Below, in pieces: positions 11,578-49,552 of a stretch of DNA of 52,997 nucleotides. Under the pieces are notes generated by a model. It was not told the origin of the DNA, searched no databases, and was given only the letters and a program-made list of their open reading frames with translations. The first letter of the stretch is position 1. Each line of letters opens with the position of its first letter. Both the position numbers and the translations under genes were made by a program. Where the stretch lies: the IMG/VR virus record IMGVR_UViG_3300009506_000043, positions 1 through 52,997 of that record. One strand, given 5' to 3'. This DNA comes from a virus.

Positions 11578-11920
11578 CATTAGCCTCTTCAACCAGGTAC
11601 TGGTCGATTTGGTCAAGTAGCTCAAACTGCCGTCGTCCATCGTCCTTTAGTGCAGCCTCCTTCTTCATTCGCTGATAGGTGCGAACCAAGTGAACATGGT
11701 AGAACTCTCGGAAGTGGCCGAGAGCATAGACGAGTAATCCGTAGGCGCCTTCACTGACATTCGGAGGGCGCCGGCGGAAATTCAGAGGCTTGCCGGATTC
11801 CTTGTAGCAGACTTTGCCGTCAACCAACTCGACAAGCCGAATGACCTGATAAACCCACCAGACATCCTCGACGATCGAACCCTCAGAGACAGCCTTATTC
11901 AGACTGATTGCGGGCTGCAA
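11453..11920 (-). CDS. Candidate terminase small subunit
   Basis: An open frame between the giant virion gene and terL. The part VSEGSIVEDVWWVYQVIRLVELVDG ... GLLVYALGHFREFYHVHLVRTY looks genuinely coding and helical. No ATG is available; TTG 11918-11920 or CTG 11900-11902 are the likely starts, so the 5' end is uncertain. The 3' end runs 125-188 bases into terL, and its last 40 residues (QCSTCGRPLGEADRIL...) may be read-through. Position suggests TerS; no DNA-binding motif was confirmed. Confidence 0.45.
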   Translation of the reverse strand: MQPAISLNKAVSEGSIVEDVWWVYQVIRLVELVDGKVCYKESGKPLNFRRRPPNVSEGAYGLLVYALGHFREFYHVHLVRTYQRMKKEAALKDDGRRQFELLDQIDQYLVEEANAARQCSTCGRPLGEADRILPRSERAIRQSGVSQEDSGSGGV

Positions 11921-14900
11921 TGATTTCTCGACGCGCTGTTGCTCTCGCTGTCGTGAAGGCCGCTTCGATTTTCTTAATGTCTCGGGCGGTGGGAGGGTCG
12001 TGGAAGTTGATGCGATTGGCGCGCTCAAGGGCGATCTCTCCTGATCGCTGCACGTATCGCTCGTATTCACCTGTCGACAGTAATTCCTTTCTGCCACGGA
12101 TTGTAATGAAGGGCTTCGGCAGACTGGGATGATATTGCAGGTCCCGTTCCGCTTCGGTCTGATGGGCCTGATTCCATTCCCAAAGCACAACATCTGCGGG
12201 GACTCGCTCACTCAGCCGCTTACCCAGCTTGACTGGTGAGATAACACGATACCACCAGGGAGTGGCTGGTGAAGAAGGCTGGATCACCCGACCCCATTTG
12301 TCGTACTTGTGAATCACGCCAGAGACAGGCAACTCGGCCTTCGCGAGCGTCTTGCGAACCTTAGTGCCAAAGTCGTCACCCTTGCGAATCCGGGTGTCAT
12401 ACACCTCATTGCGACCAACTCGCCAGGGCTGCCGAATGATGTTTGGTACAAATCCAACCAGGACATTCTGAGTCAACTGCGGAATGCCAGAAGCCTCTGG
12501 ATCGGTGAATGCGTTCACGATATCCCCGAGGTTCTGCAGGAAAGTCTTGTCCGTGATCTGCCGCAGGAATGCATCCCATTGAGAATCCGTAAGCGACTTG
12601 CCTTTCTGCCGATTATCCAGAAAGTCAATGATCGCTGGCAGGATTGTCGAGGCTGGTTCGAGGCCGGCATAGCTGAAGAATTGCTGGCCACCCCACGGAT
12701 ATCGGATGGAAAGTGGCGGTGCAACTGCCCAGGCTAGATCACGCGCGAGATAGTTGCGCGGTGAGCTGCCGGTGATGACGGGCGTGTCGTCATCACCCCC
12801 ATAGTACAAGCTGGCAACAGCAGCCGTAATTGCACCCCCAACCATCTGTCGTGCCAGGATCTTATTGAAATTCACTTCATGGCCGTGTTTCTCACTACAG
12901 AGTCGCCAGAGGGGCCAGAGCCCGATCCCTGGAAGTCGGGCCATTGCCGCCTCAAAGTTGTTGAGGGGAAAGTTATAGGTGGGAATCAGGAAGCGCCCAA
13001 ATGGCAGCTTGCGAAGACCTCTCGCCGCCTTCTTTAGTTTCTGCGTGCCAGACCACCCAGCCTGCATGAATGTGGCTTCTAATGCCTCATTGTACGCCAG
13101 CGTCCACGCAGTCGAGCGTCGATCCTTCATGGCGCTTTCGATGTAGCGGGCCATGTGCTGCTTATCGAGTCCAAATCGCTTGGCCTGGCGGTAGGCATGG
13201 GCACCGACCACAGAGTAAGCGTAGATCGTCTTGAACATATCATCAGAGGCGCTGAGTGGCCGCCAGCCAAAGCTTCGCACAAAGCGACCCCATGTGCCTT
13301 TGAGGGCAAACCGTCTATTAAGTACCTCGGTCTTGTAGACATCCCAATCTTGGGCAGCGTAATTCGTGGTGATCCCCAGCTGTTCCGCCAATGCGGATTG
13401 CTCATATGCCCAAGTGCTGGCAAAGTTACGGAGCCCTGGAGCAAGGCCCGCCCACATTCCCTTCAGGATGTATTTGAATTCGCCGAGCTGGGCCCCGGAT
13501 ACTTTCTTGCCAAAGAACTGCTGAGCCGCTTCATTCAGAAGTGCCTCGACGAATCGCTCCGGCCCCAACATCAGCAGGCCGAATCCGGTGTTGGAAATGG
13601 CATTCTTCGCATGTGTATGGGGGCCGCTGAAGATCGAATTGCTGTAGAACTCAAACATCTTGTCGGCCCAGGTTCCGCCCGCCCGCTCGATCATGATGAC
13701 ATTGATCAGCTGCATTGTTGCCAGCTCATCCTGGAGGGCGTCTTGCATCTGGTCAATGCTGATCTCCAACTCCCTGAGCCTCTCCAGGATAGCCCAAGTC
13801 GTTTCTGGGCTGTCAGTATCGAAGATGGCTTCCATGATTTTGCGGGCTCGCTTTGCAACGGGAGAACCCATGCAGATTGGATCGCGCATGTTCAAGACGC
13901 GGCTGATCCAACTTCGGGCCTCGCGGCGATAACGAGACAGATACCACGCATCATCAGCAGCCTCGCGACTGCCAAGTGCGCCGACCGTCATCGCATCGTT
14001 TAAGACCATGTTGATCACGACCATTTCCTCTTCCCATTTCCGAGGATCGTTGCCGAGATCAGCGTGTTCATGTGCCTTCATGTACTCCAGAATTCGATTT
14101 TTCTCCCCGTCGGCATCAGCCTGAACTCTTTTAGCGGCCTTCGCTTCAGCCTCGGCATGGGGATGATACTCGGGCGGGCCGATCTCTTCATCATATTTGT
14201 ACTGGAGGGTGCGACCGGCGATCGTCGTGACCGTATTGGCCCGACCAAGATAACGCTGACGTTCCATGAAGGAACGCATCGCATCGGTCTGGGTAATGCC
14301 CTCCCAGTTGACTCTGGGAGGTGGTTCGCTGGGAGCGAACATCAGAGTAGGTCCCACTCCGGCAATGGCACGACCGCTTATCCCTGGCGGGACTCGTTCA
14401 GCAATCCTTGCAAGACGCGCTTCACCAGCTCGCGTCTCTGTTCCGGGGAGAGGGCCGGTTGGGACGGGCGGCGCTTGGAGTCTTGCCGCCTTGCGGAGAT
14501 TCTTTGGAGCAACTGCTCGGAGTTTTCTGAGGGCTTGTTGGATTTCGGGATCATTTAACAACTCCGCGAATTCAGGAACGGCAGCAATGCTTTCCTGCCT
14601 GAGGGCCTTCACGACCTCCTTGCCCTTGGCTTTGGCCTTCTCCCCGATTTTAGCAGCTGAGGCGGCTTTCAGGAAGGACCAGATGGCGGATTGTGCCTCG
14701 GCAGGTTCAATGTTCAGCTGCTGGGCTGCGCGACGCACAACGGCAGTCAGGGCCAGGTAGAGGGTATGGGAATCAAAGGCGTTATCGGGTCGAACTCCAA
14801 AGAATTCGGCGAGCCAGCGGTCGACCGTCACGGCAGATAGGTCGCCAAGGAGATTCTTGCGAAAACTACGGACCTTCCAGCCGCTCAGCTCCGCGTTCAA

Positions 14901-17900
14901 GGGATTAACCTCAGAAAACGCAGTCACAAGATTGTTTACACTTGCCCCCAATACTTTCGGCTGGAGCCCCAAGAGAAACTCACGAACCTTGTCCGGCTCA
15001 AATGGCTCACCAGCCTCTTCCCAAGCATCCCAAATACGGAGCGCTTCCTTCAGATTCGTCTGTGCGCTGCGCTGTGGAGACGTGGCGGCTAACACATTTA
15101 CGAAACGCGGCGCCTGATCTCCGAAGATGGTAAACAGTGCCTGATGGGCGAATTGATACCACTCTTGCTTGGCGGCGCCGGCCTGAGCGGCGGCGACTGC
15201 TTCCCCGGTCTTGCCTTTGAGTCCCTCGAAGTGTTGAACCACTCGCTGTAGATAAGCCGGCCCAAGACCCCCCAATTCCTCCTCGGTTAGGTAGCGGGCA
15301 ACAGCTGGGGCCGTGAATGTGAAGAGTCCTTTGTCGCCGGCCTGCTGTGCTTCGATCAAGGATAGGAGCGTCTCCCGTACCTGCTGATCGTCAACCGAGA
15401 ATTTATGGTGAGCCTCTTCGCTGAGTTGATCAGCTATCTCCTGCAGCCATTGGTTATATCCGGTCCAGTCATCATCGGTCCAATTCTGAGAAACAAGAAA
15501 CATTCGCTGACTGTAACTGAGCGGCGCATTGGGAGCCTCTTGCCGCTGATGACTGTCCGGCGGCCCATAAAGGGCATCATTCAGCACTTCGGTAAACAGG
15601 TCGACGTCCTGGGTCAGATCGAGAATCTTCTCGTCACCCTGCCGAATGAGAGCGAAGGCGCGTGCCGCGTAATCCGGCTCCTCTGTGGCTGAGACCCCCT
15701 CTTCGTATCCCACGCCGCCCATAATGTCGGGAAACTCTGCGGCGACCGCTCGGCCAATCGTGTCCCACGGCACATCCATGCTTGAATGGTCCTTGCCGGC
15801 ATTCTCGACCTTGCTTAACGTGATCTTGGTCTGGCCGCTCTTGGCCCGAAGCATTTTGCGGGCAGCATTGCGGCGCCGCTTGGGATCGTACTTGAGTGCG
15901 TGCCGTTCACGCAGGTCCTTCAGAATCTCCTTGGTCCATTCCTCCTTTCGCTCGGGCGTAACGGTCTGGTTTTCCTGTGCAGCCCAAGCGTCAATTGCTT
16001 CATCTATCCGCGCCATTGCCAGGGCCTGGCCATTGACGTCATTACTCGGGCGGCCTGGACCTTTGATCAGTTCCGCCCGGCGAGCCGCAACCCGATCTCG
16101 CTGCTCCTTCAATTCATTCAAGACCGCCAGGGCATCAGGATCAGTAAGGTTCTTGGCTCGCCCGAACAACTTCAATAGGGCATCCACCAACCGCTGCCAC
16201 AATGTCGGCTGCTCTTGTAGTAACTGCTCACGGAAGGCGCCATCTGTGAAGAAGGTGCCGACCATCTCGGCCATTGCTTCCCGCCAATACCAGTCCGTCT
16301 TGTTGCCTTTGTCGTCGATCAGGTATTTGCGATACCCGGTCATATCGGGCGGCAGTCTTTTCATGTACTGCTGACCGAACTGATCAAGGCGCGCCTCTCC
16401 CACCAGAGCCTTCAAGACGTCCACTTCAGTAGCATGGGCCAGCTCGTGGCCGGCGGTGTACCAAATTGCCTCCTCAGCGGCTCGCTCGTCCAAGTAGAGT
16501 ACGCGAGGCCCTCGCACTCGTTCATCGACAAAGGAGATTTCTGCGGTGCTCGTGATAATGCGGACGTCATGCCCGAATGCTTGGGCTAATTGCTGCGCCG
16601 CCTTTTCTTGCGAAGAAGACGGTTCCCGCATCGAGGTAACTTCCACAGGCACGCCGAGTTCTTTCATCCGGTCATTGAGCTGTTCCAGCGATAACACCGC
16701 AGGTGGTGCGAGCGGGGGCTTGGCCTTCTCTGGAGCGGCGGGGACGGGCTGTATTTCCGTACCGGTGAAAAACTCCCCGAATCGCTTTCGGAGAATCCTG
16801 CGAACCTTGTCGTAATCGTAGTCCCTCATCCCCCTCCCCATGTCTTGCCGAATGTCAGACATGAGTGCTGGTACGCCTCCGAAACCGTACTGATGGAAGG
16901 TTGGATCGCCACGCTCAATCACATCGAAACGACCCATTACCTTATCAGTAAACGGCTGGTCCTCGTTGAGAGTGGAACCTTGTGGGACATCTAACAGCTC
17001 ACCAAACTCCGCCTCTATCTCCTGGGATATACGATCTGCTTTGTCCTTACTGCCAAGGTAGATGGTATAGTCTTTACCTTTCTGTCCACTACTGCGGCCC
17101 TCCTTGAATAAAACTCCCTTCTCTCTCAGCTTCTGCGTAACCGCATCCCTATTCTCCTTCGAGACGGCTAAATGCAACTTCCAGCCAGCACCCTCTACTG
17201 CCATGTCTTTGTGCATATCAGGAGCATTCGGGCTGCCGGCTGGTGGAACGTAGTATCCAGGAGTCTTCGCCGGCTGACTTACTGGTATTTGCGGGACGAC
17301 GGCTTCGACCTCGGCAGCTGCTGTTGCTGGACCCAACTCCCCAGGCGTCAGCTCCTGATAACGACCAGTGCGCTCAACCATGCGCTGGGCGAGCGCCCGC
17401 CTGATCGTGTCCTCATCCTGCTGGAGATCCTCCTTGCTCAAGGGATAGCCCATTGCCTTCGCAGCCGATGCCAGCCCTTCTTTGTCCAGATCCCTCAGCT
17501 GGTCATATTGGCGCTGGGCGCGTTCTGAAAGTGGGGCTGGCGCTGCCCCTACTTGTGCTTCCGGTGCTTGCTGTGCTTCGGCTTCCGCCCCGTGGCGTAG
17601 CTCAGGCCGGTTTTCGCCTGGGCGATTCTGATCGCTGATCCCTCCGAGTACCCCTTCGCCTGTAGGTGGCGCTTCAGGCGGGCGACTTTCGAGTTTTTCG
17701 GCATGACTGATCTCCTTCTGATAGGGTTTGACTTGCTTAGCCAGGATCTCCCGAATCATCGATTCGCGGGACCGAACTTTTGGAAATCCAAATCTCTTGG
17801 CAATATCCCACTTTGACATTGCCTCCAATTCCTGACGAATAGCATCCTCGGCTTCAGGAAAGGCCAGAACCTTTTCCTTCTGAGCCTCTGGAAGCTCCAG

Positions 17901-19676
17901 CACGCGGAGAAAAGATGGACCACCTCTTGGTGCCTGTTGTGCCGCGAGCCGCTCTTTAGACATCTGGACGATTCTGGCGCGGGCCAGGGCGTCCAGCCCC
18001 AGGTCGGCCAGGTTCTTCCTTGGAACCCCTGCAGCTTCAGCAAACTGGGTCCGGGTAGGAATCTCTGGTAGGTTAGCGAGTGCGTCCCATTGGTCGGGAT
18101 GTTGACTAATGAAGTCGCGGGCCAACTGCGTCCTTTTGTGCTCAGCCGATACTTCCGCCTCGGGAATTTCCTCGACCGGAGTTGGTTCGGGGGTTTCCGT
18201 GGCCGGAATTGGCTCGGGGGCGAGAACCTCCTGAACAGCGGCTTGAAACTCAGTCGGCTCGGCTGCAGGTTCGGCCGGCGGCGCTTCCGTGGCCTTTTCC
18301 CGTTCCTTCCTTGCCGCCGCCAGTCGCTCGCGGAAGTCTTTGGCTAAAGTGATCTGCGGGCCTTCCCCCAGCGCCTCCCTTATCACAGCGGCCCCAGCAG
18401 GGATCCCAAGGAAGCCCAGATACTGAGACATCAGATCGACAGCCAAATCCTTGTAGCGACCTTCCTTGATTTCCTCCAATGTTCGACTGTCGCCAGGCGA
18501 GACCGTCGCGGCTCGGGCAAACTCCTCAAAATACTCTTCCACCATTTCAAGCGGAGGTGCCTGCAGCTGCGTGCGCTTGGCGAATTTGGCGACCTTGCCC
18601 TTACCGAAAATGCTGGCGTGCTTGTTCATCATGAATTGCGCCAGCTTCTTGGGAAAATAGCCCTTCTGCGCCATCTTCCGGGTGGTTCCGCTGATCGTGC
18701 CACCAAGTGCCTCTGAGGCAGCCGTGATCGATTGGCCGATGAATGCCTTGGAGTAGGCAGTCAGTGGGCTTTCGCCTTCCGTCAATCGACGGCGCTCGGC
18801 CTCGGCGGCGATTTGCTGAGGCATGCCAAGGGCCTGGACGGCAGATCGAGCAACGACGGCGGCCACGCGGCCAGAAAGCTTGCGCGTAACGCCCTTAATG
18901 CCGGCCTTGGTGGCGGCTCGCATCGTCATCTTCGCGGCCCCTGCTCCGGCGCGAGCGGCCAGGCCGGCGGGCAGTGCGAATTCGGCAACATAACCTGGCA
19001 GCGAGGTCATGATATCAACGCCGCCCTGCGTCACTCGCTTATACCAGGCTTTCTGATCCTGATTCTCGTGCCAGCGATTCTCCTGGATGAATTGCCCAAG
19101 AAGTAGGTAATCACCTGAATCAGCTTCACCGGCATTGAAGCGATTGACGGCACCTCGGAGTTTGACCAGCTCACCGACTTCTACGCCGGTCCCCACAAAA
19201 GGAATTCTGCTGACCCAATACTTGAGGTTCTCGCGATTAGTCGAGAGATCCTCGAACATGGCCATTGCGCTCAGGAGTCGCTTTTCGGGCAGGGCCTGGT
19301 CATCTGCCCAATCATTCGGCTGAACGCGAGTGTAGGAGGCCAACCATTCGTCCTGATCAATTTGGCCTAGGGCAAATCGATAGTCCTCGGAGCTGCCCTG
19401 CCCTGCGCCTACACGGCGAATTGCTACCTGGGTCGGACGAAGGCCGCTTTCTAATCCGGCTTGAATGTCTTCGGGGACGGCAAACTCAATCTGCTGAGTG
19501 AGTTTGCCAATCCCCTGAGAGGCAGTCTCCATCAGCTTTGAGAGCGGCTTCTGTTCTCCATTGGCGGCTTGCCGGGGACCTTCCTTAAAGAGTCGCTGCA
19601 GACCCTCGTGTGAAATCTCAAGTCCATCGCCGAGAATCCATTTTGTGCCATCCCAGGTTGCGGGTATTTGGGCCAT
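11895..19676 (-). CDS. Giant virion/ejection polyprotein-like protein with zincin peptidase
   Basis: At 2,593 residues it takes about 15% of the genome. Order: helical N terminus with a hydrophobic Ala/Gly segment near 230-260; Pro/Glu-rich linker near 450-520; small helical repeats (ELEAMSKWDIAKRFGFPKVR and GLASAAKAMGYPLSKEDL); a zincin peptidase with HELAH at 1077-1081 and candidate third ligands E1133/E1137 in WREAMAEM; a helical region with NVLAATSPQRSAQTN; and a C-terminal 600 residues resembling large polyvalent-protein ends (GGAITAAVASLYYGGDDD near 2290). Location beside nozzle and Gln-rich virion genes suggests it is packaged and injected with DNA, possibly opening the envelope. Domain names beyond the zincin are tentative. 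Confidence 0.75.
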   Translation of the reverse strand: MAQIPATWDGTKWILGDGLEISHEGLQRLFKEGPRQAANGEQKPLSKLMETASQGIGKLTQQIEFAVPEDIQAGLESGLRPTQVAIRRVGAGQGSSEDYRFALGQIDQDEWLASYTRVQPNDWADDQALPEKRLLSAMAMFEDLSTNRENLKYWVSRIPFVGTGVEVGELVKLRGAVNRFNAGEADSGDYLLLGQFIQENRWHENQDQKAWYKRVTQGGVDIMTSLPGYVAEFALPAGLAARAGAGAAKMTMRAATKAGIKGVTRKLSGRVAAVVARSAVQALGMPQQIAAEAERRRLTEGESPLTAYSKAFIGQSITAASEALGGTISGTTRKMAQKGYFPKKLAQFMMNKHASIFGKGKVAKFAKRTQLQAPPLEMVEEYFEEFARAATVSPGDSRTLEEIKEGRYKDLAVDLMSQYLGFLGIPAGAAVIREALGEGPQITLAKDFRERLAAARKEREKATEAPPAEPAAEPTEFQAAVQEVLAPEPIPATETPEPTPVEEIPEAEVSAEHKRTQLARDFISQHPDQWDALANLPEIPTRTQFAEAAGVPRKNLADLGLDALARARIVQMSKERLAAQQAPRGGPSFLRVLELPEAQKEKVLAFPEAEDAIRQELEAMSKWDIAKRFGFPKVRSRESMIREILAKQVKPYQKEISHAEKLESRPPEAPPTGEGVLGGISDQNRPGENRPELRHGAEAEAQQAPEAQVGAAPAPLSERAQRQYDQLRDLDKEGLASAAKAMGYPLSKEDLQQDEDTIRRALAQRMVERTGRYQELTPGELGPATAAAEVEAVVPQIPVSQPAKTPGYYVPPAGSPNAPDMHKDMAVEGAGWKLHLAVSKENRDAVTQKLREKGVLFKEGRSSGQKGKDYTIYLGSKDKADRISQEIEAEFGELLDVPQGSTLNEDQPFTDKVMGRFDVIERGDPTFHQYGFGGVPALMSDIRQDMGRGMRDYDYDKVRRILRKRFGEFFTGTEIQPVPAAPEKAKPPLAPPAVLSLEQLNDRMKELGVPVEVTSMREPSSSQEKAAQQLAQAFGHDVRIITSTAEISFVDERVRGPRVLYLDERAAEEAIWYTAGHELAHATEVDVLKALVGEARLDQFGQQYMKRLPPDMTGYRKYLIDDKGNKTDWYWREAMAEMVGTFFTDGAFREQLLQEQPTLWQRLVDALLKLFGRAKNLTDPDALAVLNELKEQRDRVAARRAELIKGPGRPSNDVNGQALAMARIDEAIDAWAAQENQTVTPERKEEWTKEILKDLRERHALKYDPKRRRNAARKMLRAKSGQTKITLSKVENAGKDHSSMDVPWDTIGRAVAAEFPDIMGGVGYEEGVSATEEPDYAARAFALIRQGDEKILDLTQDVDLFTEVLNDALYGPPDSHQRQEAPNAPLSYSQRMFLVSQNWTDDDWTGYNQWLQEIADQLSEEAHHKFSVDDQQVRETLLSLIEAQQAGDKGLFTFTAPAVARYLTEEELGGLGPAYLQRVVQHFEGLKGKTGEAVAAAQAGAAKQEWYQFAHQALFTIFGDQAPRFVNVLAATSPQRSAQTNLKEALRIWDAWEEAGEPFEPDKVREFLLGLQPKVLGASVNNLVTAFSEVNPLNAELSGWKVRSFRKNLLGDLSAVTVDRWLAEFFGVRPDNAFDSHTLYLALTAVVRRAAQQLNIEPAEAQSAIWSFLKAASAAKIGEKAKAKGKEVVKALRQESIAAVPEFAELLNDPEIQQALRKLRAVAPKNLRKAARLQAPPVPTGPLPGTETRAGEARLARIAERVPPGISGRAIAGVGPTLMFAPSEPPPRVNWEGITQTDAMRSFMERQRYLGRANTVTTIAGRTLQYKYDEEIGPPEYHPHAEAEAKAAKRVQADADGEKNRILEYMKAHEHADLGNDPRKWEEEMVVINMVLNDAMTVGALGSREAADDAWYLSRYRREARSWISRVLNMRDPICMGSPVAKRARKIMEAIFDTDSPETTWAILERLRELEISIDQMQDALQDELATMQLINVIMIERAGGTWADKMFEFYSNSIFSGPHTHAKNAISNTGFGLLMLGPERFVEALLNEAAQQFFGKKVSGAQLGEFKYILKGMWAGLAPGLRNFASTWAYEQSALAEQLGITTNYAAQDWDVYKTEVLNRRFALKGTWGRFVRSFGWRPLSASDDMFKTIYAYSVVGAHAYRQAKRFGLDKQHMARYIESAMKDRRSTAWTLAYNEALEATFMQAGWSGTQKLKKAARGLRKLPFGRFLIPTYNFPLNNFEAAMARLPGIGLWPLWRLCSEKHGHEVNFNKILARQMVGGAITAAVASLYYGGDDDTPVITGSSPRNYLARDLAWAVAPPLSIRYPWGGQQFFSYAGLEPASTILPAIIDFLDNRQKGKSLTDSQWDAFLRQITDKTFLQNLGDIVNAFTDPEASGIPQLTQNVLVGFVPNIIRQPWRVGRNEVYDTRIRKGDDFGTKVRKTLAKAELPVSGVIHKYDKWGRVIQPSSPATPWWYRVISPVKLGKRLSERVPADVVLWEWNQAHQTEAERDLQYHPSLPKPFITIRGRKELLSTGEYERYVQRSGEIALERANRINFHDPPTARDIKKIEAAFTTARATARREIIAARNQSE

Positions 19677-42433: not shown

Positions 42434-42985
42434 TCAGGCTGCCGCTGGGGCAATTTGGCTTCTAGCCCATTCATCCAGCGATTCCTTTTGCTTCGTGATG
42501 GATTGAGTCGTATCAACAAGTAGGTCTCTATCACAACGATAGACGGCAGCGTGGCCGCCTTTTTTCTCGCCGGCGGCACAAGTGCATTTCGCAGCGGCGG
42601 TCGCCCAGGCTGCGCGTTGTTCGCGTGATTGAATCTCGCCAGCGGCGAAGGCGAGTGCAATCGTGACCGCCGTCTGATGCCAGATGGTCACAAACCCAGT
42701 GTCGCGGCAGATCGAACACTCATAGTGATCGCGGCGCCAATGGGCATCCTCACTGAGTGTCGGATGTAGGTCGTGCTTGATATGCACGGCGATTGCACGC
42801 AGTTCGCCAGGCCGTGGCATCCAATGTGTGTCGCGCCGCAGCCATTCATCAACTGCAAGGATCAAGGCATCATCAGGCAGGTCGCAGAGAACATCCTTCC
42901 AGATGGCCAATTCGTCCGGGTTGATCTCCTGATGCAAGCCGGTGCAGAGTCGAGAGTACGCGGCGGTGATGTGGGAGGCGTTCAT
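42434..42985 (-). CDS. Helicase-loader-like protein
   Basis: A 183-residue protein, MNASHITAAYSRLCTGLHQE. The N terminus (EINPDELAIWKDVLCDLPDD ... WLRRDTHWMPRPGELRAIA) matches the SPP1 G39P/loader pattern. A central YECSICRDTGF ... CTCAAG suggests a zinc-binding part, as in some loaders. It directly follows the initiator gene, as P follows O in lambda. Probable role: bring host DnaB helicase to the origin. Confidence 0.55.
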   Translation of the reverse strand: MNASHITAAYSRLCTGLHQEINPDELAIWKDVLCDLPDDALILAVDEWLRRDTHWMPRPGELRAIAVHIKHDLHPTLSEDAHWRRDHYECSICRDTGFVTIWHQTAVTIALAFAAGEIQSREQRAAWATAAAKCTCAAGEKKGGHAAVYRCDRDLLVDTTQSITKQKESLDEWARSQIAPAAA

Positions 42986-43914
42986 TGCTTGCAAAACCTC
43001 CCAGGGATTTTGATGCGCCGTTTTCGCTCGGATGCGGCATCCAGTTCCTCCGGCGTCATCTCGGACTTGGGCTTCTTGCCGTCCTTGGGCTCAAAGAGGC
43101 CCTGGTAGCCATTGGCGATCGAGTGGCGGAGCGCAGCGATTGCTCGATCCCTGCCCCAGCCTTCCAGCTTCTGGAGCGTCTCGTAGGCGCCGGTTTCCTT
43201 GATCGGCTTGTGGATCTCGCTCCGGTGCCGAACCCAGTCGAGCCAGGCGGCAAACAGCTCGTCATCGTGGAAAAGGCTCGGCCAGTACAACCGGTCGCAG
43301 AGACCGGGAGGACGGGGCGGTGGGGGGGGGAGCCTTTCTGTAGATTCTTTTGAATCCAAGACATTTGATTCCGAATCCTGGGTAGGATCAAGAGATACCC
43401 TAGCGCCTTGGTTACTACTGTCGTACGACCGGGTCACTACGACCGGGTCACTACGACCGGGTCGTACGACCGGGTCACTACGACCGGTTGAAGCATTTTC
43501 CCCCTCTTCTGGGGACCAGAGTGTTACGACCGGGTCACTACGACCGGGTCGTACGACCGGGTCACTACGACCGGTTGAAGCATTCCGAGTGAGGAATCCG
43601 CCCATCCTACTCACCCGACCCTTGACATGGCGGGGGGCGTGATCGTGCCAATCGTGGATCAGGAGCCGGTACGTTTCATCGCGGTCGAGCCAGCCGGTTT
43701 CGATGAGGGCGGCCAGCAGCTCTTGGGGGTCGCCAGGCCAGTCGGCGAAGATGGCAATTTCCTCGTCTGTGTATCGACCGATATCACCTCTTGGACACTC
43801 CGTCGTGGCCGACATCCAGAGACACTCCAGGAGCCCGACAGCCTCATGCTTCGAGAGTCCCAGGTGGCGCTGAAAGCGGCGGAACTTCAATAGATCAGGC
43901 GCAGTGTGAATCAC
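42982..43914 (-). CDS. Replication initiator-like protein
   Basis: A 310-residue protein from GTG 43912-43914. N terminus APDLLKFRRFQRHLGLSKHE ... IAIFADWPGDPQELLAALIE resembles phage initiators and DnaD-like winged helices. The centre holds tandem ASTGRSDPVVRPGRSDPVV, encoded by the iteron array. The C terminus (AFAAWLDWVRHRSE-like helices, AIAALRHSIANGYQGLFEP) recalls primosome loading domains. It precedes a loader-like gene, giving an O/P-style pair. Confidence 0.65.
   Translation of the reverse strand: MIHTAPDLLKFRRFQRHLGLSKHEAVGLLECLWMSATTECPRGDIGRYTDEEIAIFADWPGDPQELLAALIETGWLDRDETYRLLIHDWHDHAPRHVKGRVSRMGGFLTRNASTGRSDPVVRPGRSDPVVTLWSPEEGENASTGRSDPVVRPGRSDPVVVTRSYDSSNQGARVSLDPTQDSESNVLDSKESTERLPPPPPRPPGLCDRLYWPSLFHDDELFAAWLDWVRHRSEIHKPIKETGAYETLQKLEGWGRDRAIAALRHSIANGYQGLFEPKDGKKPKSEMTPEELDAASERKRRIKIPGRFCKQ
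43424..43579. repeat. Nine-iteron replication origin candidate
   Basis: Nine near-identical units, TACGACCGGGTCAC and variants, at about 43424, 43438, 43452, 43465, 43479, 43525, 43539, 43552 and 43566. A 60-bp block (43438-43497) is exactly duplicated at 43525-43584. GTCGTACGAC palindromes join some units. An array inside its own initiator gene is how lambda ori is organised within O. Confidence 0.7.
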
Positions 43915-44473
43915 GGGAAGCGGGCCTTTCTGCGAGTTCTTTCTTGAGGTATCGCATGGCGTATAAACGGTGTGCGGGAAAGACGCAGGCGCCGGTCTCT
44001 CGGTTGAATGCTTTCTCCCGGTGAATACATTGACAGGCGACAATCTCGCGTGATTGCCAGCCGATTAACTCGATAGTTGTGATATTGACCATTCTGCAAA
44101 GGACGAAATAGTCGGCGGCGAAAGTTGTATCTGGCGGGAAAATCATCTCCAGCTTGTGCAGTGGCATTGTGCGGAGATTTATGGCCCTGGTCTTGACCTG
44201 AATCGTCGCATTAGAATCCTGCAAATCTATGGAATCGTCGCCGCCAGGCAGGATGCGCCGATCGACGTTGAAACCTAAATATCTGCCGACCGCCATTTCG
44301 CCCATCAGGCCAAGCCAGTGCGAACCGAATCCGGCCTCAACCCAATCGACGCGATGTTTGGCACCCGATTTCTCTTTCGCCTCCTGCCGAAGCCTGGCGA
44401 GGCGACAGGCATTCTCGACCTCGATGGGCTTGAGTTCGATCGGTTCAAAATTTTCAACTGTCGTAAAGGACAC
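43895..44473 (-). CDS. PD-(D/E)XK-like nuclease
   Basis: A 192-residue protein, MSFTTVENFEPIELKPIEVE. HWLGLMGEMAVGRYLGFNV, then DDSIDLQDSNATIQVKTRAI gives the E...D...QxK order of PD-(D/E)XK nucleases, followed by FVLCRMVNITTIELIGWQSR and KKELAERPASRDSHCA. It could process recombination intermediates. ATG follows GGAGGCGTCTGGTGTCC-like sequence; it overlaps the HTH gene slightly. Confidence 0.6.
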   Translation of the reverse strand: MSFTTVENFEPIELKPIEVENACRLARLRQEAKEKSGAKHRVDWVEAGFGSHWLGLMGEMAVGRYLGFNVDRRILPGGDDSIDLQDSNATIQVKTRAINLRTMPLHKLEMIFPPDTTFAADYFVLCRMVNITTIELIGWQSREIVACQCIHREKAFNRETGACVFPAHRLYAMRYLKKELAERPASRDSHCA

Positions 44474-45314: not shown

Positions 45315-46421
45315 TCACGCGGCTCTATTTGCGAGCTCAGCGGCTCGCTCGTCACAGGCGACAAAGATGGCGTCCATTGTTTGTTGGTCGGCGTAACCAG
45401 CGAAGCGAGTGCCCACCCGCTCCACTTCCTCATGGGTGGTTGCTCGCGCGAGTGCGTTTCGTAAGGCCTCAGGTGTGTATTGGAGGGCAACGTGCTCATC
45501 ACTGGATTCCTCTGTTTCTGTGGGTGATTCTTCAGGGACCTCCTTCAACTCCTCGACGGCCGGCGCCGGTGATTCTGCCTTCTGCGATTTGGCCTTTCGT
45601 CGCGGCCCAGCAAGTCGATCTGTGACAGTGCCCGCAACAGGCGTCGATTCACCGAACCAGGTCTCGACCGTTTCGATTCCATCCTTGATTGATTGGTAAA
45701 CGCGAATGAGATTGAGCAGCTCAGGCTCGCGAGTTGCTGCGAGATTGTGCTGCAGAAACGCCTCCAGCATCCCGGTAGTGACGCCGAGTACGGCGAATTT
45801 CTCAGTGCATCGCTTGATTCGAGCTGGAAGGGGTTCAGATGACGTGCTTAGGGTTTTATCAACCTCATCGCTCATCAGCTCTTGCAGGTATCTGGGAATG
45901 ACCTGCTGCATGCAGGCCCTGAGCCGGCGGGCACCCATGTTCGCGTTGTGCTCATAGATATCCCTTGGGTCAACGAGCGGCTCTGGCCCTTCGCGCTTTG
46001 AGCGCAAGTGCTCATTGATCCAGCCACGGCTCACAAGTACGTTGCTCTCCAGGTCTGCGGCGAAAGCCATCAAAGAGGATTCTCCTGGCCGGCGCTCGAC
46101 TTCGCTCCAACCTGAGTAGACGTTCTTGTAGATCCTGGCCAGTTCGAGCACGGCATGAACACTGAGACCGGAAACGATCTGATTCCCGCGCTTGTAGGCG
46201 TACTTGGCCTTTTCGCAGAAGGTCCGGCTCTTGCAAACTCCGACGACCTTGTTGACGCATTGCATCTCGTCGCGAGGGAATCGCTTGGCGAGCAGCATGC
46301 CAGACTGAATCTGATAGCTGATGCGTGCAGACTCCAGATCCAGCTGGCGGCTGGAGTCAGCGATCGCGGGCAGAGATTCCGTTTCGATCTCACCTTGTGA
46401 GGTAACAAGTTCGGTTCCCAT
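45315..46421 (-). CDS. Candidate single-strand annealing protein
   Basis: A 368-residue protein after TAGGAGGTCCAT. SGLSVHAVLELARIYKNVYS ... SSLMAFAADLESN ... VDPRDIYEHNANMGARRLRA and VIPRYLQELM match a widespread phage family (GPS.RLAE.., DLETN, SRDIYE.VANMGARRLRAC.L..IP) found beside RecE/YqaJ-type exonucleases and thought to anneal DNA. The rear is Glu/Pro-rich and disordered. Family role is from memory, not confirmed. Confidence 0.55.
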   Translation of the reverse strand: MGTELVTSQGEIETESLPAIADSSRQLDLESARISYQIQSGMLLAKRFPRDEMQCVNKVVGVCKSRTFCEKAKYAYKRGNQIVSGLSVHAVLELARIYKNVYSGWSEVERRPGESSLMAFAADLESNVLVSRGWINEHLRSKREGPEPLVDPRDIYEHNANMGARRLRACMQQVIPRYLQELMSDEVDKTLSTSSEPLPARIKRCTEKFAVLGVTTGMLEAFLQHNLAATREPELLNLIRVYQSIKDGIETVETWFGESTPVAGTVTDRLAGPRRKAKSQKAESPAPAVEELKEVPEESPTETEESSDEHVALQYTPEALRNALARATTHEEVERVGTRFAGYADQQTMDAIFVACDERAAELANRAA

Positions 46422-46430
46422 ATGGACCTC

Positions 46431-47336
46431 CTAATCGGGCATTTCGAGTGGAATGGTTTTTCCCCAACCTTGAGGAAACCAGTTGTCGGTCTCATAACGC
46501 TGCAGCAGTTCGTCGAGCCAGGTATCAGCTCGCCACCGACCGAAGGCGAGAAAACGCGGCGTGTCCTCGTAGACGTACACGTCGTAGGGCGGGCTGTTGC
46601 GAATCACGACCCAGACGAACCGCCAGCCAGTCTTTCCGGTCAGCGCTTCAATGGCTTCGAGATAAGTGACCGCCTGGACGTCGTAGCAGTACCGCTTGCA
46701 CGCCCACCGGAACGGGTAAGGCTCGGGATCCTGGGCGGTCTTGACGTCCACGACGAGCTGCGGGCGCCAGAGAACAAGGTCCAGTTCAGCCTTGCGACCG
46801 ACCTCTGTCCGAGGGCATTCCCAGAAGATTTGTACGTTCCAATCGTGCTTCAGCCGGCCAAACAGGAGACTGTTGGCAGCTTCATGACTGCGCAGATTGG
46901 CCAGGACTTGCGTGTAGCAACCCCACTTGCCGTAGCGATCTTCGATTTCAGGAGAGGTGAGGAGCTCGGCGCCTGCCGGTTGCGAGTCCCGGTAGTTAAT
47001 CCAGGCGGATCCCTTGCGATGCCCATCGGCATTCAGAGCGGTGGAGGGGATGTGGCGGATCGTCGAGGGGCAGCCCCCGGATCGGATGGCCGCCTCGCAC
47101 GCGATTCCCCAGGCTTGAGATGGGGTTGGGTCACTGGGCGGAACGATCTTCTGGACGCGGGTCCGCCAGTACAACAGAGGCGCCTGGTGAGCGAAAACCA
47201 CGTCACTCTGGGCGAGCAGCCGATGGTCTCTGTACTCTTGAGCGCCTAAGCAGACTCTCAATGCGCCGTTCACCGGATCCCCGCGCTTCGGTGGAGTCCG
47301 GCAGCACTGTACGGTCTTGGGGGTGCCAGAGGTCAT
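46431..47336 (-). CDS. RecE-like PD-(D/E)XK exonuclease
   Basis: A 301-residue protein, MTSGTPKTVQCCRTPPKRGD. AELDLVLWRPQLVVDVKTAQ carries the D...DxK core; RYCYDVQAVTYLEAIEALTG is the following QxxxY helix of RecE-type nucleases. Such enzymes make 3' single-stranded tails for the annealing protein encoded just after. ATG overlaps the CsrA-like stop as ATGA. Confidence 0.75.
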   Translation of the reverse strand: MTSGTPKTVQCCRTPPKRGDPVNGALRVCLGAQEYRDHRLLAQSDVVFAHQAPLLYWRTRVQKIVPPSDPTPSQAWGIACEAAIRSGGCPSTIRHIPSTALNADGHRKGSAWINYRDSQPAGAELLTSPEIEDRYGKWGCYTQVLANLRSHEAANSLLFGRLKHDWNVQIFWECPRTEVGRKAELDLVLWRPQLVVDVKTAQDPEPYPFRWACKRYCYDVQAVTYLEAIEALTGKTGWRFVWVVIRNSPPYDVYVYEDTPRFLAFGRWRADTWLDELLQRYETDNWFPQGWGKTIPLEMPD

Positions 47337-47671
47337 AGCCGGCCCTCAGGCGTTGAGAGAGGATTTTGATCTTTCGACGACTCCCCGGTCGGGCGTCGGT
47401 CGGCGTCGGCGGATCCCCGATTGGAATCCAATCCACAAACCTTCTCAGGTTCCCGACTGCGAGAAAGTGCTCGATGCAGTTCCTCGGTTTGTTGTTCAGG
47501 CAGTTGTCGTCTAATGAGGACATCATGTGGAGCCCAGATAGATGAATGAACGCACTTTCCCCGCACCGATGAGACCATCACTTCGATGATGACCTCGGCA
47601 GGCATTGGGGGGACGATCAAGTAGAAGCACTCGCCCGTCTTGCGAGCAATCGTCAGCCGACCATGCGGCAC
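47333..47671 (-). CDS. csrA-like: CsrA-family RNA-binding protein with C-terminal extension
   Basis: A 112-residue protein from GTG 47669-47671 after GGAGGAGAA. RLTIARKTGECFYL aligns to CsrA LILTRRVGE (R10 equals CsrA R6), and EVIIEVMVSSVRGKCVHSSIW ending APHDVLIRR aligns to [26 protein letters not shown] (R55 equals R44). Both RNA-contacting arginines are kept. CsrA binds GGA motifs near ribosome-binding sites. About 50 extra disordered residues follow. It heads the recombination operon. Confidence 0.7.
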   Translation of the reverse strand: MPHGRLTIARKTGECFYLIVPPMPAEVIIEVMVSSVRGKCVHSSIWAPHDVLIRRQLPEQQTEELHRALSRSREPEKVCGLDSNRGSADADRRPTGESSKDQNPLSTPEGRL

Positions 47672-47967
47672 TTCTCCTCCAATTGACGCCGTTCAAATCC
47701 ATCGGCAGAGGATACATCGAGAAGGCGAAGCACAGCAACTTGTCACATCGAAACAGGACCAAATCGATGTGTTGTCACTTCCTGTCACTTCCTGTCACTT
47801 CCTGTCACGTCGAAAAACGTGCGCTTATGACACGCGCACAAGAGGTGCGAAATGCTTCGCGCAGAGAAGGTGTGAATTTCCCGATGAAAACAGCACAGTC
47901 TCAATACGGGATTTTGAAAGTGGCAGGGGGTGCGCAGGCAGTGCTTCGGATAGTGCTTCGCCTGCAT

Positions 47968-47997
47968 AAAAAAACCCCTGTTTTTCAAGGGGTTTTT
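47968..47997. terminator. Bidirectional terminator in attP
   Basis: AAAAACCCC paired with GGGGTTTTT, 10-base loop, T-runs on both strands, between int and the csrA-like gene. Confidence 0.8.
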
Positions 47998-48029: not shown

Positions 48030-48042
48030 AGGGGCGATTTTG

Positions 48043-49263
48043 TCACTTCCTGGCACTTTCTGTCACTATTTCCTGGGAAATTCGGATTGACTTGCGGCCA
48101 GGAAGTGACTTTGGCACTCTATGCCGGCGCCGAGATGCTTCGCTTTTTACTTCGCCCTCTTCGACCGCCAGTCTCAAGTGCTCCTCCGTCACTTGCAGGT
48201 AGTGTTGCTCGGCGACGCGGCTGGAATGACCGATCCAACCGGCGACAACATGCGAGGGGAATCTATCATTTAATTCTGTCTCTCTGCTCGATCGCATGTT
48301 TTGAAAAAGCTTCGGCCAAGGTATAATACCACGACTCCGCAAAGCGCGCTTGACTCTGTGGTAAACCGTGGGCCCTGTCATCGTCGGATCGTCGATAATC
48401 TGACCCTTAGACTCATGTTGCCAGCGCCGACTCAAAACCTCCCTGACGTCGGGGAAGAGTGGAATCATCCGAATTCGGCAATGCGGGTGCCTGGCCGTCT
48501 TCTGGCAGGTCACACGAAGCGTCCCGCCTTCCCAGTCAATATCAGCCCAGTCGAGCGGGAGGACCTCAGAGGGCACCCTGAGGCCTCCAAAACGGGCCAG
48601 GACGGCGACCAAATACGAGTCGTCATCCAGATCGTCGGCCAGGCTGCGGATCGATTCCTGGGGTACCCAGACGCGCCTAGCGGCCAGATCCGGCTTCGGG
48701 GGCCGAATGCCGGCGAATGGATTGACTGGCAGCCACTGTTTGGCCACGGCCGCCGCGAAGAACTGGCCGGCCTGCCGAAACCGACTCTCCACTGTGGCAG
48801 TCGAAAGCGGCTCGCCCTTGACCGCACCATGCTGGCTGAGCCAAACCAAAAACTCTTGCGCGTCTCCCCGGCTGACCGATCCAATCAATCGATCCGGGCC
48901 GAAAAAAGTCAGGAGATTTCTCTTTACCTTAGCGTGAATTTTTTGGGTAGAGGAATTGACCTGGACAGTTCGGCTGGCGTAGTCAAGCAAGGCGGCCAGC
49001 GTGGCCTGTGGGGCTTCCTCAAGGACCCCAAGCCGGGCGAGACGTTGTGTCATTTGCGGACTCAGGCCTGTGACCCAGGCCCTGGTTTCAGGGTCAAGCG
49101 GCAGGCCGAGCCGCCTTGTGCTCAGAATCATGTCGATGCGCCTCGCGAGTTGCTGCGCTTGGCGCCTCGACGCAACGCCGAGTCGCAGAGTTTGCCGCGA
49201 CCCGTTGAGGTTCCGAAATTGAATCCACACATGGCCTTTCGGCCTCCTGACAACTGACGCCAT
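48043..49263 (-). CDS. int: Tyrosine integrase, planctomycete type
   Basis: A 406-residue recombinase from ATG 49261-49263 (GGAGGCGCATG; an adjacent upstream ATG is alternative). N-terminal MASVVRRPKGHVWIQFRNL and a SAM-like core-binding part precede the catalytic domain: FGGLRVPSEVLPLDW (Arg), CQKTARHPHCRIRMIP (Lys region), FQNMRSSRETEL (box II, His replaced by Asn/Gln), GWIGHSSRVAEQHYLQV (His and Tyr). The box II variant and AEQHYLQVTEEH ending fit integrases I associate with Planctomycetes. attP lies at its 3' end. Confidence 0.9.
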   Translation of the reverse strand: MASVVRRPKGHVWIQFRNLNGSRQTLRLGVASRRQAQQLARRIDMILSTRRLGLPLDPETRAWVTGLSPQMTQRLARLGVLEEAPQATLAALLDYASRTVQVNSSTQKIHAKVKRNLLTFFGPDRLIGSVSRGDAQEFLVWLSQHGAVKGEPLSTATVESRFRQAGQFFAAAVAKQWLPVNPFAGIRPPKPDLAARRVWVPQESIRSLADDLDDDSYLVAVLARFGGLRVPSEVLPLDWADIDWEGGTLRVTCQKTARHPHCRIRMIPLFPDVREVLSRRWQHESKGQIIDDPTMTGPTVYHRVKRALRSRGIIPWPKLFQNMRSSRETELNDRFPSHVVAGWIGHSSRVAEQHYLQVTEEHLRLAVEEGEVKSEASRRRHRVPKSLPGRKSIRISQEIVTESARK

Positions 49264-49552
49264 CATGCGCCTCCAGTGTTTTGAGATATCGTTCCACAGC
49301 GGATCGCCTGATCCGCACAATCCTCCCTCCGCAACTGACGGTAGGGAGTTCGCCCGCCTCGATTTTGCGCCGTAGAGTGCGCGATGAGACGTGCAACAAA
49401 TTGGCAGCCTCTGCGTAAGTCAGAAGTTGCGCTTGAGGGATGACCTGGACTGATTCCAGTGTCAATGACCCTTGGAGGACTTGGTCTGCGAGCCACAGAC
49501 CGATCACCTCGCCGAGAACTCGGCACGCCTCGACAATTTCGTCCCTTGACAT
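49094..49552 (-). CDS. Xis-like HTH protein overlapping int
   Basis: A 152-residue protein, MSRDEIVEACRVLGEVIGLW. LLTYAEAANLLHVSSRTLRR then KIEAGELPTVSCGGRIVRIR is a typical excisionase/MerR-like winged helix. Start after AAGGAGGCCCCTA. It runs 170 bases into int, recalling lambda xis-int overlap. Most likely controls excision or int expression. Confidence 0.65.
   Translation of the reverse strand: MSRDEIVEACRVLGEVIGLWLADQVLQGSLTLESVQVIPQAQLLTYAEAANLLHVSSRTLRRKIEAGELPTVSCGGRIVRIRRSAVERYLKTLEAHDGVSCQEAERPCVDSISEPQRVAANSATRRCVEAPSAATREAHRHDSEHKAARPAA

Follow-up and report, generated by a model that had tools for sequence, protein, structure and literature searches.

The DNA analyzed here, one virus record of 52,997 bases that we call the window, raises a question at the point where its recombination genes begin: what is the short reading frame that stands first among them, and what could a protein resembling the RNA-binding regulator CsrA do in that place? 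The locus comprises the following features:

47333..47671, minus strand: csrA-like gene, 112 aa; core at about residues 5-56, helix to about residue 72, low-confidence tail beyond
47672..47682, minus strand: Shine-Dalgarno region UUGGAGGAGAA ahead of the csrA-like GTG
46431..47336, minus strand: exonuclease VIII / PD-(D/E)XK-like gene (PF12684, E 3e-8; phrog_412, E 9e-20)
45315..46421, minus strand: gene for a RecT-like annealing protein (phrog_3657, function unknown, E 1.6e-65)
47773..47804, no strand assigned: three tandem 10-bp repeats TGTCACTTCC
47970..47997, no strand assigned: terminator-like inverted repeat that separates the integrase gene from the csrA-like gene
48043..49320, minus strand: tyrosine integrase gene, upstream of the csrA-like gene on the same strand
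49094..49552, minus strand: gene for an excisionase-like HTH_17 protein (PF12728, E 4e-12)

Reading frame and neighboring genes

The csrA-like ORF runs for 112 codons on the minus strand from a GTG start to a TGA stop; GGAGG precedes the GTG at a distance of four bases, and the stop codon overlaps the start of the exonuclease gene (47336) as ATGA. The ORF is genuine, and the phage gene that a preliminary description of this DNA had claimed at 47333-47671 is borne out by its start codon, Shine-Dalgarno sequence and overlap. The codon scores of the frame (7.1 for the core, 4.7 for the tail) exceed the wrong-frame 95th percentile of 1.3; among reference-gene chunks, whose 5th percentile is 1.4, 25th 9.8 and median 14.1, they fall in the lowest quarter. 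For the tail, the annotated frame scores 4.7, an alternative minus frame 2.4 and an open plus-strand frame 4.6, so that codon use leaves the frame of the tail unsettled. An open minus-strand frame of 107 codons (47203-47526), which has no family match in Pfam, overlaps both the tail and the start of the exonuclease gene.

Along the minus strand the order is HTH, integrase, terminator-like hairpin, csrA-like, exonuclease VIII-like and RecT-like. The csrA-like gene had been described as heading the recombination genes, and it is indeed the first of a minus-strand run, separated from the integrase gene by the hairpin. The interval from the hairpin to the csrA-like gene yielded no sigma-70-type promoter, and the place of the gene as operon head therefore stands on strand, spacing and hairpin. 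An Rfam match to FinP over the hairpin (47970-47997) was below threshold (E 0.7) and was disregarded. The product of 45315-46421, which has no Pfam match, matched phage genes of which several are annotated RecT-like; used as single queries, the exonuclease and the RecT-like protein gave no confirmed viral relatives.

Similarity of the product to CsrA

The Pfam family CsrA (PF02599) is the sole match of the window protein up to E 10, with 17.5 bits (E 0.0041). This falls short of the curated gathering score of 27 bits, which is a threshold for automatic naming and not a biological feature, and we therefore name the protein CsrA-like, a divergent homologue, rather than CsrA. When PF02599 was searched against the whole record, the csrA-like ORF was the only match up to E 10 (E 1.4e-4). 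In NCBIfam two CsrA models came out on top (E 0.026 and 0.048, below their cut-offs), with an unrelated reductase model close behind both (E 0.068), and in PHROGs a CsrA-like family ranked first (E 0.05). CsrA was not found when the window protein was compared with the PDB by phmmer.

These scores can be set against controls with two profiles of our own, one made from 7 phage CsrAs and the other from 19 CsrAs. The first gave the window protein 12.2 bits, reached by none of 20,000 shuffles (13,360 reported, best 7.1), and the second gave 15.8 bits, reached by none of 50,000 (34,962 reported, best 13.5). Both profiles placed the csrA-like ORF first among 768 stretches of the window, the next scoring 7.1 with the 19-CsrA profile, with which 5,489 stretches taken from the loci of terminase relatives reached 9.2 at best. 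The profile alignments span residues 29-56 or 29-62 only; the match of beta-1 and R10 depends on the local Pfam alignment (residues 8-56) together with the multiple alignment. Homology to the CsrA core thus exceeds chance by the shuffle and window-stretch controls, and is joined by the canonical csrA found in a related phage, G026, described below.

When the window protein is aligned with 18 viral CsrAs, R10 falls opposite R6 of CsrA and R55 opposite R44. R10, A47 and R55 are invariant in all 19 rows, which confirms the earlier claim that both RNA-contacting arginines are kept, and L6, V33, I45 and P48 are nearly so; the AP motif (A47, P48) is retained. The window protein has serine for the near-invariant glycine at position 44, lacks the acidic residue that follows R44, and carries an insertion in the beta-2/beta-3 turn. 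The beta-1 arginine R6 of CsrA contacts RNA. R44, at the beta-5/helix junction, is described as an RNA-contact arginine of CsrA in excerpts from PMC7366521.

Searches of viral contigs, phages and plasmids found no close homologue of the window protein. Phages gave only a short match to a Gordonia phage (residues 16-50, E 0.3), which was dismissed as chance similarity, and matches at E ≤ 1 in 225 of 392 genomes of the phylum of G041 were read as noise; the best of these (E 3.3e-4) contains two internal stops.

Position of csrA in terminase relatives

Relatives were reached through the terminase, by a single-protein search (25 loci) and an alignment search (best 80 of 232) of viral contigs. The terminase search of genome contigs gave 41 loci, with a Phycisphaerae MAG at the top, a Deltaproteobacteria MAG second, Planctomycetota and others later, and Lentisphaerae and Vampirovibrio lower down; to judge from these relatives, the host of this temperate phage is likely a planctomycete. 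Of 59 sampled genomes of the likely host phylum, 24 carry CsrA genes that score above the cut-off. In the phylum of L114, single genomes can hold many matches to the family (17 in G119, one of them below the cut-off, and 9 in G095), which appear to be a strong paralogue expansion. In the window, the terminase gene adjoins a single ORF of 2,593 aa (11895-19676, minus strand), which we guess to encode a very large virion protein.

PF02599 was searched in 65 viral records: it was found in none of the first 25 terminase relatives, many of which are fragments, and in 2 of 40 further loci (L155 and L157), the 40 being those that remained of 63 after 23 on contigs of 4.1-7.3 kb were left out. L155 belongs to G026 (IMGVR_UViG_3300007094_000015), whose terminase identity, at 56%, is the highest found. 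The HTH protein of G026 is homologous to that of the window (29% over 110 aa), as is its integrase (43% over 381 aa, E 5e-97). Its csrA, 301 bases past the integrase gene, encodes a canonical CsrA of 60 aa (82 bits to PF02599) and is followed by an ORF resembling a DEDD exonuclease on visual inspection (weak PHROG match to DNA polymerase, E 1.7e-5; none in Pfam), then by a RecT-like gene (phrog_561, E 5e-10) and, further on, by a RecD2-like helicase gene. G026 thus resembles the window in that csrA stands after a homologous integrase and before an exonuclease-looking ORF and a RecT-like gene; unlike the window protein, its CsrA is tail-less, and the next ORF is DEDD-looking rather than exonuclease VIII-like.

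Neither the exonuclease nor the csrA-like protein of the window was found in any of the 25 terminase relatives, and the window RecT-like protein was found in 1 of 21 records, a Candidatus Brocadiaceae genome and not G026. Because the exonuclease and the RecT-like protein were not found in these relatives beyond that one record, the synteny consists of HTH, integrase and the place of csrA; and since, in addition, nothing passed E 1e-3 when the window protein was compared with G026 CsrA by BLAST, the link between the two csrA genes is one of place and family. This position is the best support for the identity of the window protein.

The profile scores relative to their controls and the canonical csrA at the same place in the nearest relative together make it likely that the window protein is a divergent CsrA homologue. 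The family assignment of the preliminary description is upheld by these two results and by the CsrA-guided model discussed below, but not by a hit above cut-off: where a significant CsrA hit had been expected, a match exists at 17.5 bits, under the Pfam cut-off.

Surroundings of csrA in other viruses

A scan with G026 CsrA gave 17 viral loci, G026 included, whose neighboring genes were judged by BLAST against reference genes and by Pfam for 10 chosen ORFs. In 5 of them (L243, which is G026, L256, L251, L252 and L255) csrA lies near probable recombination genes, while the same limited look showed no recombination gene in the other 12. L256 has an integrase (27% over 164 aa), a csrA (56 bits) separated from it by 3 kb, a RecT (PF03837, E 3.5e-31) and a replication protein similar to that of the window (42% over 125 aa). 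An AAA ORF directly follows csrA in L251, L252 and L255; in L251 the ORFs are AAA_24 and then DUF669 by Pfam, which we take to be a phage annealing module, and the similar ORF layout of L252 and L255 was the basis for grouping them with it. Record G027 has, at L220 1483-2105, a second divergent csrA, with LWRK replacing LTRR, that overlaps an endonuclease-like gene by ATGA, as the csrA-like gene of the window overlaps the exonuclease gene.

E. coli CsrA matched 91 of 50,697 records of a phage collection at E 0.1, including at least one 691-kb Salmonella contig filed as phage, and the context of csrA was read in seven phages of this collection. In phi297, csrA is on the same strand as PD-(D/E)XK nuclease and RecT genes and lies upstream of them by ∼1.3 kb, and in PSTCR8lys an exonuclease gene lies ∼3.4 kb downstream of csrA. 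Within 3.5 kb downstream of csrA, PA8 and Fyn8 have hypothetical genes only, and two Vibrio crassostreae/tasmaniensis phages have no annotated recombination gene. What is most interesting about the locus is this recurrence of csrA beside integrase and recombination genes, and the order integrase, csrA, nuclease/RecT offers a concrete place in which to seek diverged copies and phage uses of CsrA.

C-terminal tail and predicted structure

Past R55/Q56, the expected end of the last CsrA strand, the window protein continues for 56 residues, in agreement with the tail of about 50 residues noted earlier. The tail is not the novelty it had seemed: the CsrAs of phi297, PA8 and Fyn8 have 123 aa, and excerpts from PMC7366521 describe the C-terminal extension of CsrA as highly variable among taxa. 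The tails of phi297 and the window gave no alignment at E ≤ 100, and we have therefore kept the window protein out of the RsmM/Bci type.

A single-sequence model of the window protein was poor (pLDDT 43), while a model guided by the 18 viral CsrAs reached an overall pLDDT of 71, with the residue blocks 11-20, 31-40 and 41-50 each averaging above 90 and the tail near 50. The guided model, whose guide alignment holds CsrAs, has strands at 15-20, 27-37 and 40-46 and a helix at 59-72; beta-1 and beta-5 are not strands in this single chain, as expected of a lone chain without their partners. In Foldseek the top 13 rows were all CsrA/Rsm (E 0.012-0.14, none below 0.001), and the best VIA match had Z 6.0 and rmsd 2.7 over 55 residues, with unrelated folds appearing from rank 8 on (Z 3.8) among the rows shown. 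Because the guide sequences are CsrAs, this likeness is partly built in and serves as a consistency check, not as independent proof; with that qualification, the predicted structure is consistent with the CsrA fold.

Repeats and the putative attachment site

Beyond the three tandem copies, TGTCACTTCC occurs twice at 48041-48062 and once, inverted and inside the integrase gene, at 48099-48110. The six copies, of which two are inexact and one of these is inverted, flank the hairpin between the integrase and csrA-like genes. The arm-type integrase sites of lambda show such a layout, and the repeats are probably integrase arm sites, with the attP region here. On the minus strand the tandem repeats ahead of the csrA-like gene read GTGACAGGAA, which contains GGA, and GGA-bearing repeats of this kind look like CsrB-type motifs; we rejected their reading as CsrA sites, given that the hairpin has copies to its left and right and that one copy, in inverted orientation, is within the integrase gene. 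A clustering probability calculated for the repeats is circular, the pattern having been chosen from the cluster itself, and carries no weight here. The Shine-Dalgarno sequences of the window and G026 csrA leaders both include GGA, with GTGACAGGA upstream in both, and no GGA-hairpin target was identified.

Elsewhere in the window, 14-bp units TACGACCGGGTCAC are repeated at 43424-43584 within a replication-initiator-like gene (42982-44043); in our estimation they resemble the iterons in lambda gene O, and they are probably the phage origin.

Proposed function and alternative explanations

How might such a protein act? With moderate confidence, we read it as a diverged CsrA homologue that would serve as an early, dimeric RNA-binding regulator of translation; RNA binding in itself seems to us reasonably probable. 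The diverged gene would probably descend from a canonical phage csrA at the same place. Its product, a small regulator predicted to dimerize and to bind RNA, would be made early from the recombination operon, its translation presumably coupled to that of the exonuclease. Through the two retained arginines, which CsrA uses on GGA-bearing RNA, it would then, at the start of lytic growth, alter the translation of host mRNAs and possibly of phage mRNAs. By analogy with the published phage CsrAs, host translation is probably what the protein adjusts early in infection, though it may also regulate itself, and the earlier suggestion that it could shift host metabolism or time phage translation is a reasonable one.

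A minority possibility is that the protein is derived from CsrA but is no longer a stand-alone RNA regulator, having drifted or been repurposed, for instance as a partner that spoils host CsrA or for a function borne by the tail. Its strong divergence from the canonical CsrA of G026, the lost glycine, the turn insertion and a tail unlike that of phi297 would suit a repurposed copy, and host CsrA may be present to interfere with, given that 24 of the 59 sampled genomes mentioned above have it. Such a copy is harder to reconcile with RNA-contact arginines and an AP motif that are still present, an intact frame with a good Shine-Dalgarno sequence, and codon scores above those of wrong frames, albeit in the lowest quarter of reference chunks.

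It is also unlikely that the protein mainly regulates the phage's own transcripts, repressing or timing translation of its leader and of the exonuclease/RecT operon. The position at the head of the operon, the ATGA coupling, the GGA in the Shine-Dalgarno sequences of both the window and G026 csrA and the shared upstream GTGACAGGA point in this direction, but any good Shine-Dalgarno sequence includes GGA, no GGA was shown to lie in a hairpin loop, and the GTGACAGGA copies of the window, present on both sides of the hairpin, are better explained as integrase arm sites. Doubtful in our judgment, too, is the idea that one planctomycete temperate phage lineage durably keeps csrA by the attachment site, within its integrase/recombination control region, and that in this phage the gene has diverged into a dedicated switch for early phage mRNAs, gaining a new C-terminal tail, and does not mimic host CsrA.

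That the protein is a small phage protein of an unfamiliar family, similar to CsrA by chance and located at the usual spot of small early genes, would fit the sub-threshold profile scores, the phmmer search of the PDB and the poor single-sequence model, but is improbable given that no shuffle reached its score in either test (0 of 20,000 and 0 of 50,000) and that the nearest relative has a canonical csrA at the corresponding place.

Relation to known phage CsrA proteins

Considered as a diverged CsrA homologue, the window protein is a fairly ordinary example of something already known, since phage-borne CsrAs, tailed ones included, have been described. Excerpts from PMC7366521 count CsrA in 30 of 2,517 phage genomes and mention extended C-termini; the portions of PMC8450108 used here, a survey of GenBank phages and IMG/VR, correlate phage CsrA with host CsrA and propose it as a possible repressor of CRISPR-Cas (anti-CRISPR). 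A full-text search of the open-access literature turned up no description of csrA from planctomycete phages. As the window protein illustrates, a phage csrA gene can become so divergent that the standard Pfam threshold misses it. As far as its excerpted methods indicate, the survey in PMC8450108 started from PF02599 at E 1e-4 and then built a phage-specific profile; surveys seeded in this way may therefore undercount phage CsrA.

Bci of the Pseudomonas phage AUS531phi (phi297-type; RsmM type in excerpts from PMC7366521) shares with the window protein a long C-terminal extension and a temperate phage. It has 123 aa, with the CsrA domain at residues 1-51, and deletion of bci lowered infection and altered quorum-sensing genes, motility, biofilm and pyocyanin, according to the parts of PMC7546807 consulted. 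The phi297-type protein, from a phage of Pseudomonas, has a canonical core, with 67-69% identity to E. coli, whereas the core of the window protein is diverged. Overexpression of host csrA reduces prophage release (excerpts from PMC12371270).

In Vibrio phage VvAW1 a CsrA-like gene overlaps an exonuclease gene, as in the window; its product has a canonical core without a long tail, and it follows the exonuclease gene, whereas that of the window precedes it. The Bcep22-like phage JC1 also carries a CsrA (gp47), whose gene sits between virion genes, and one unique peptide of it was seen in virions (PMC9144972, in part).
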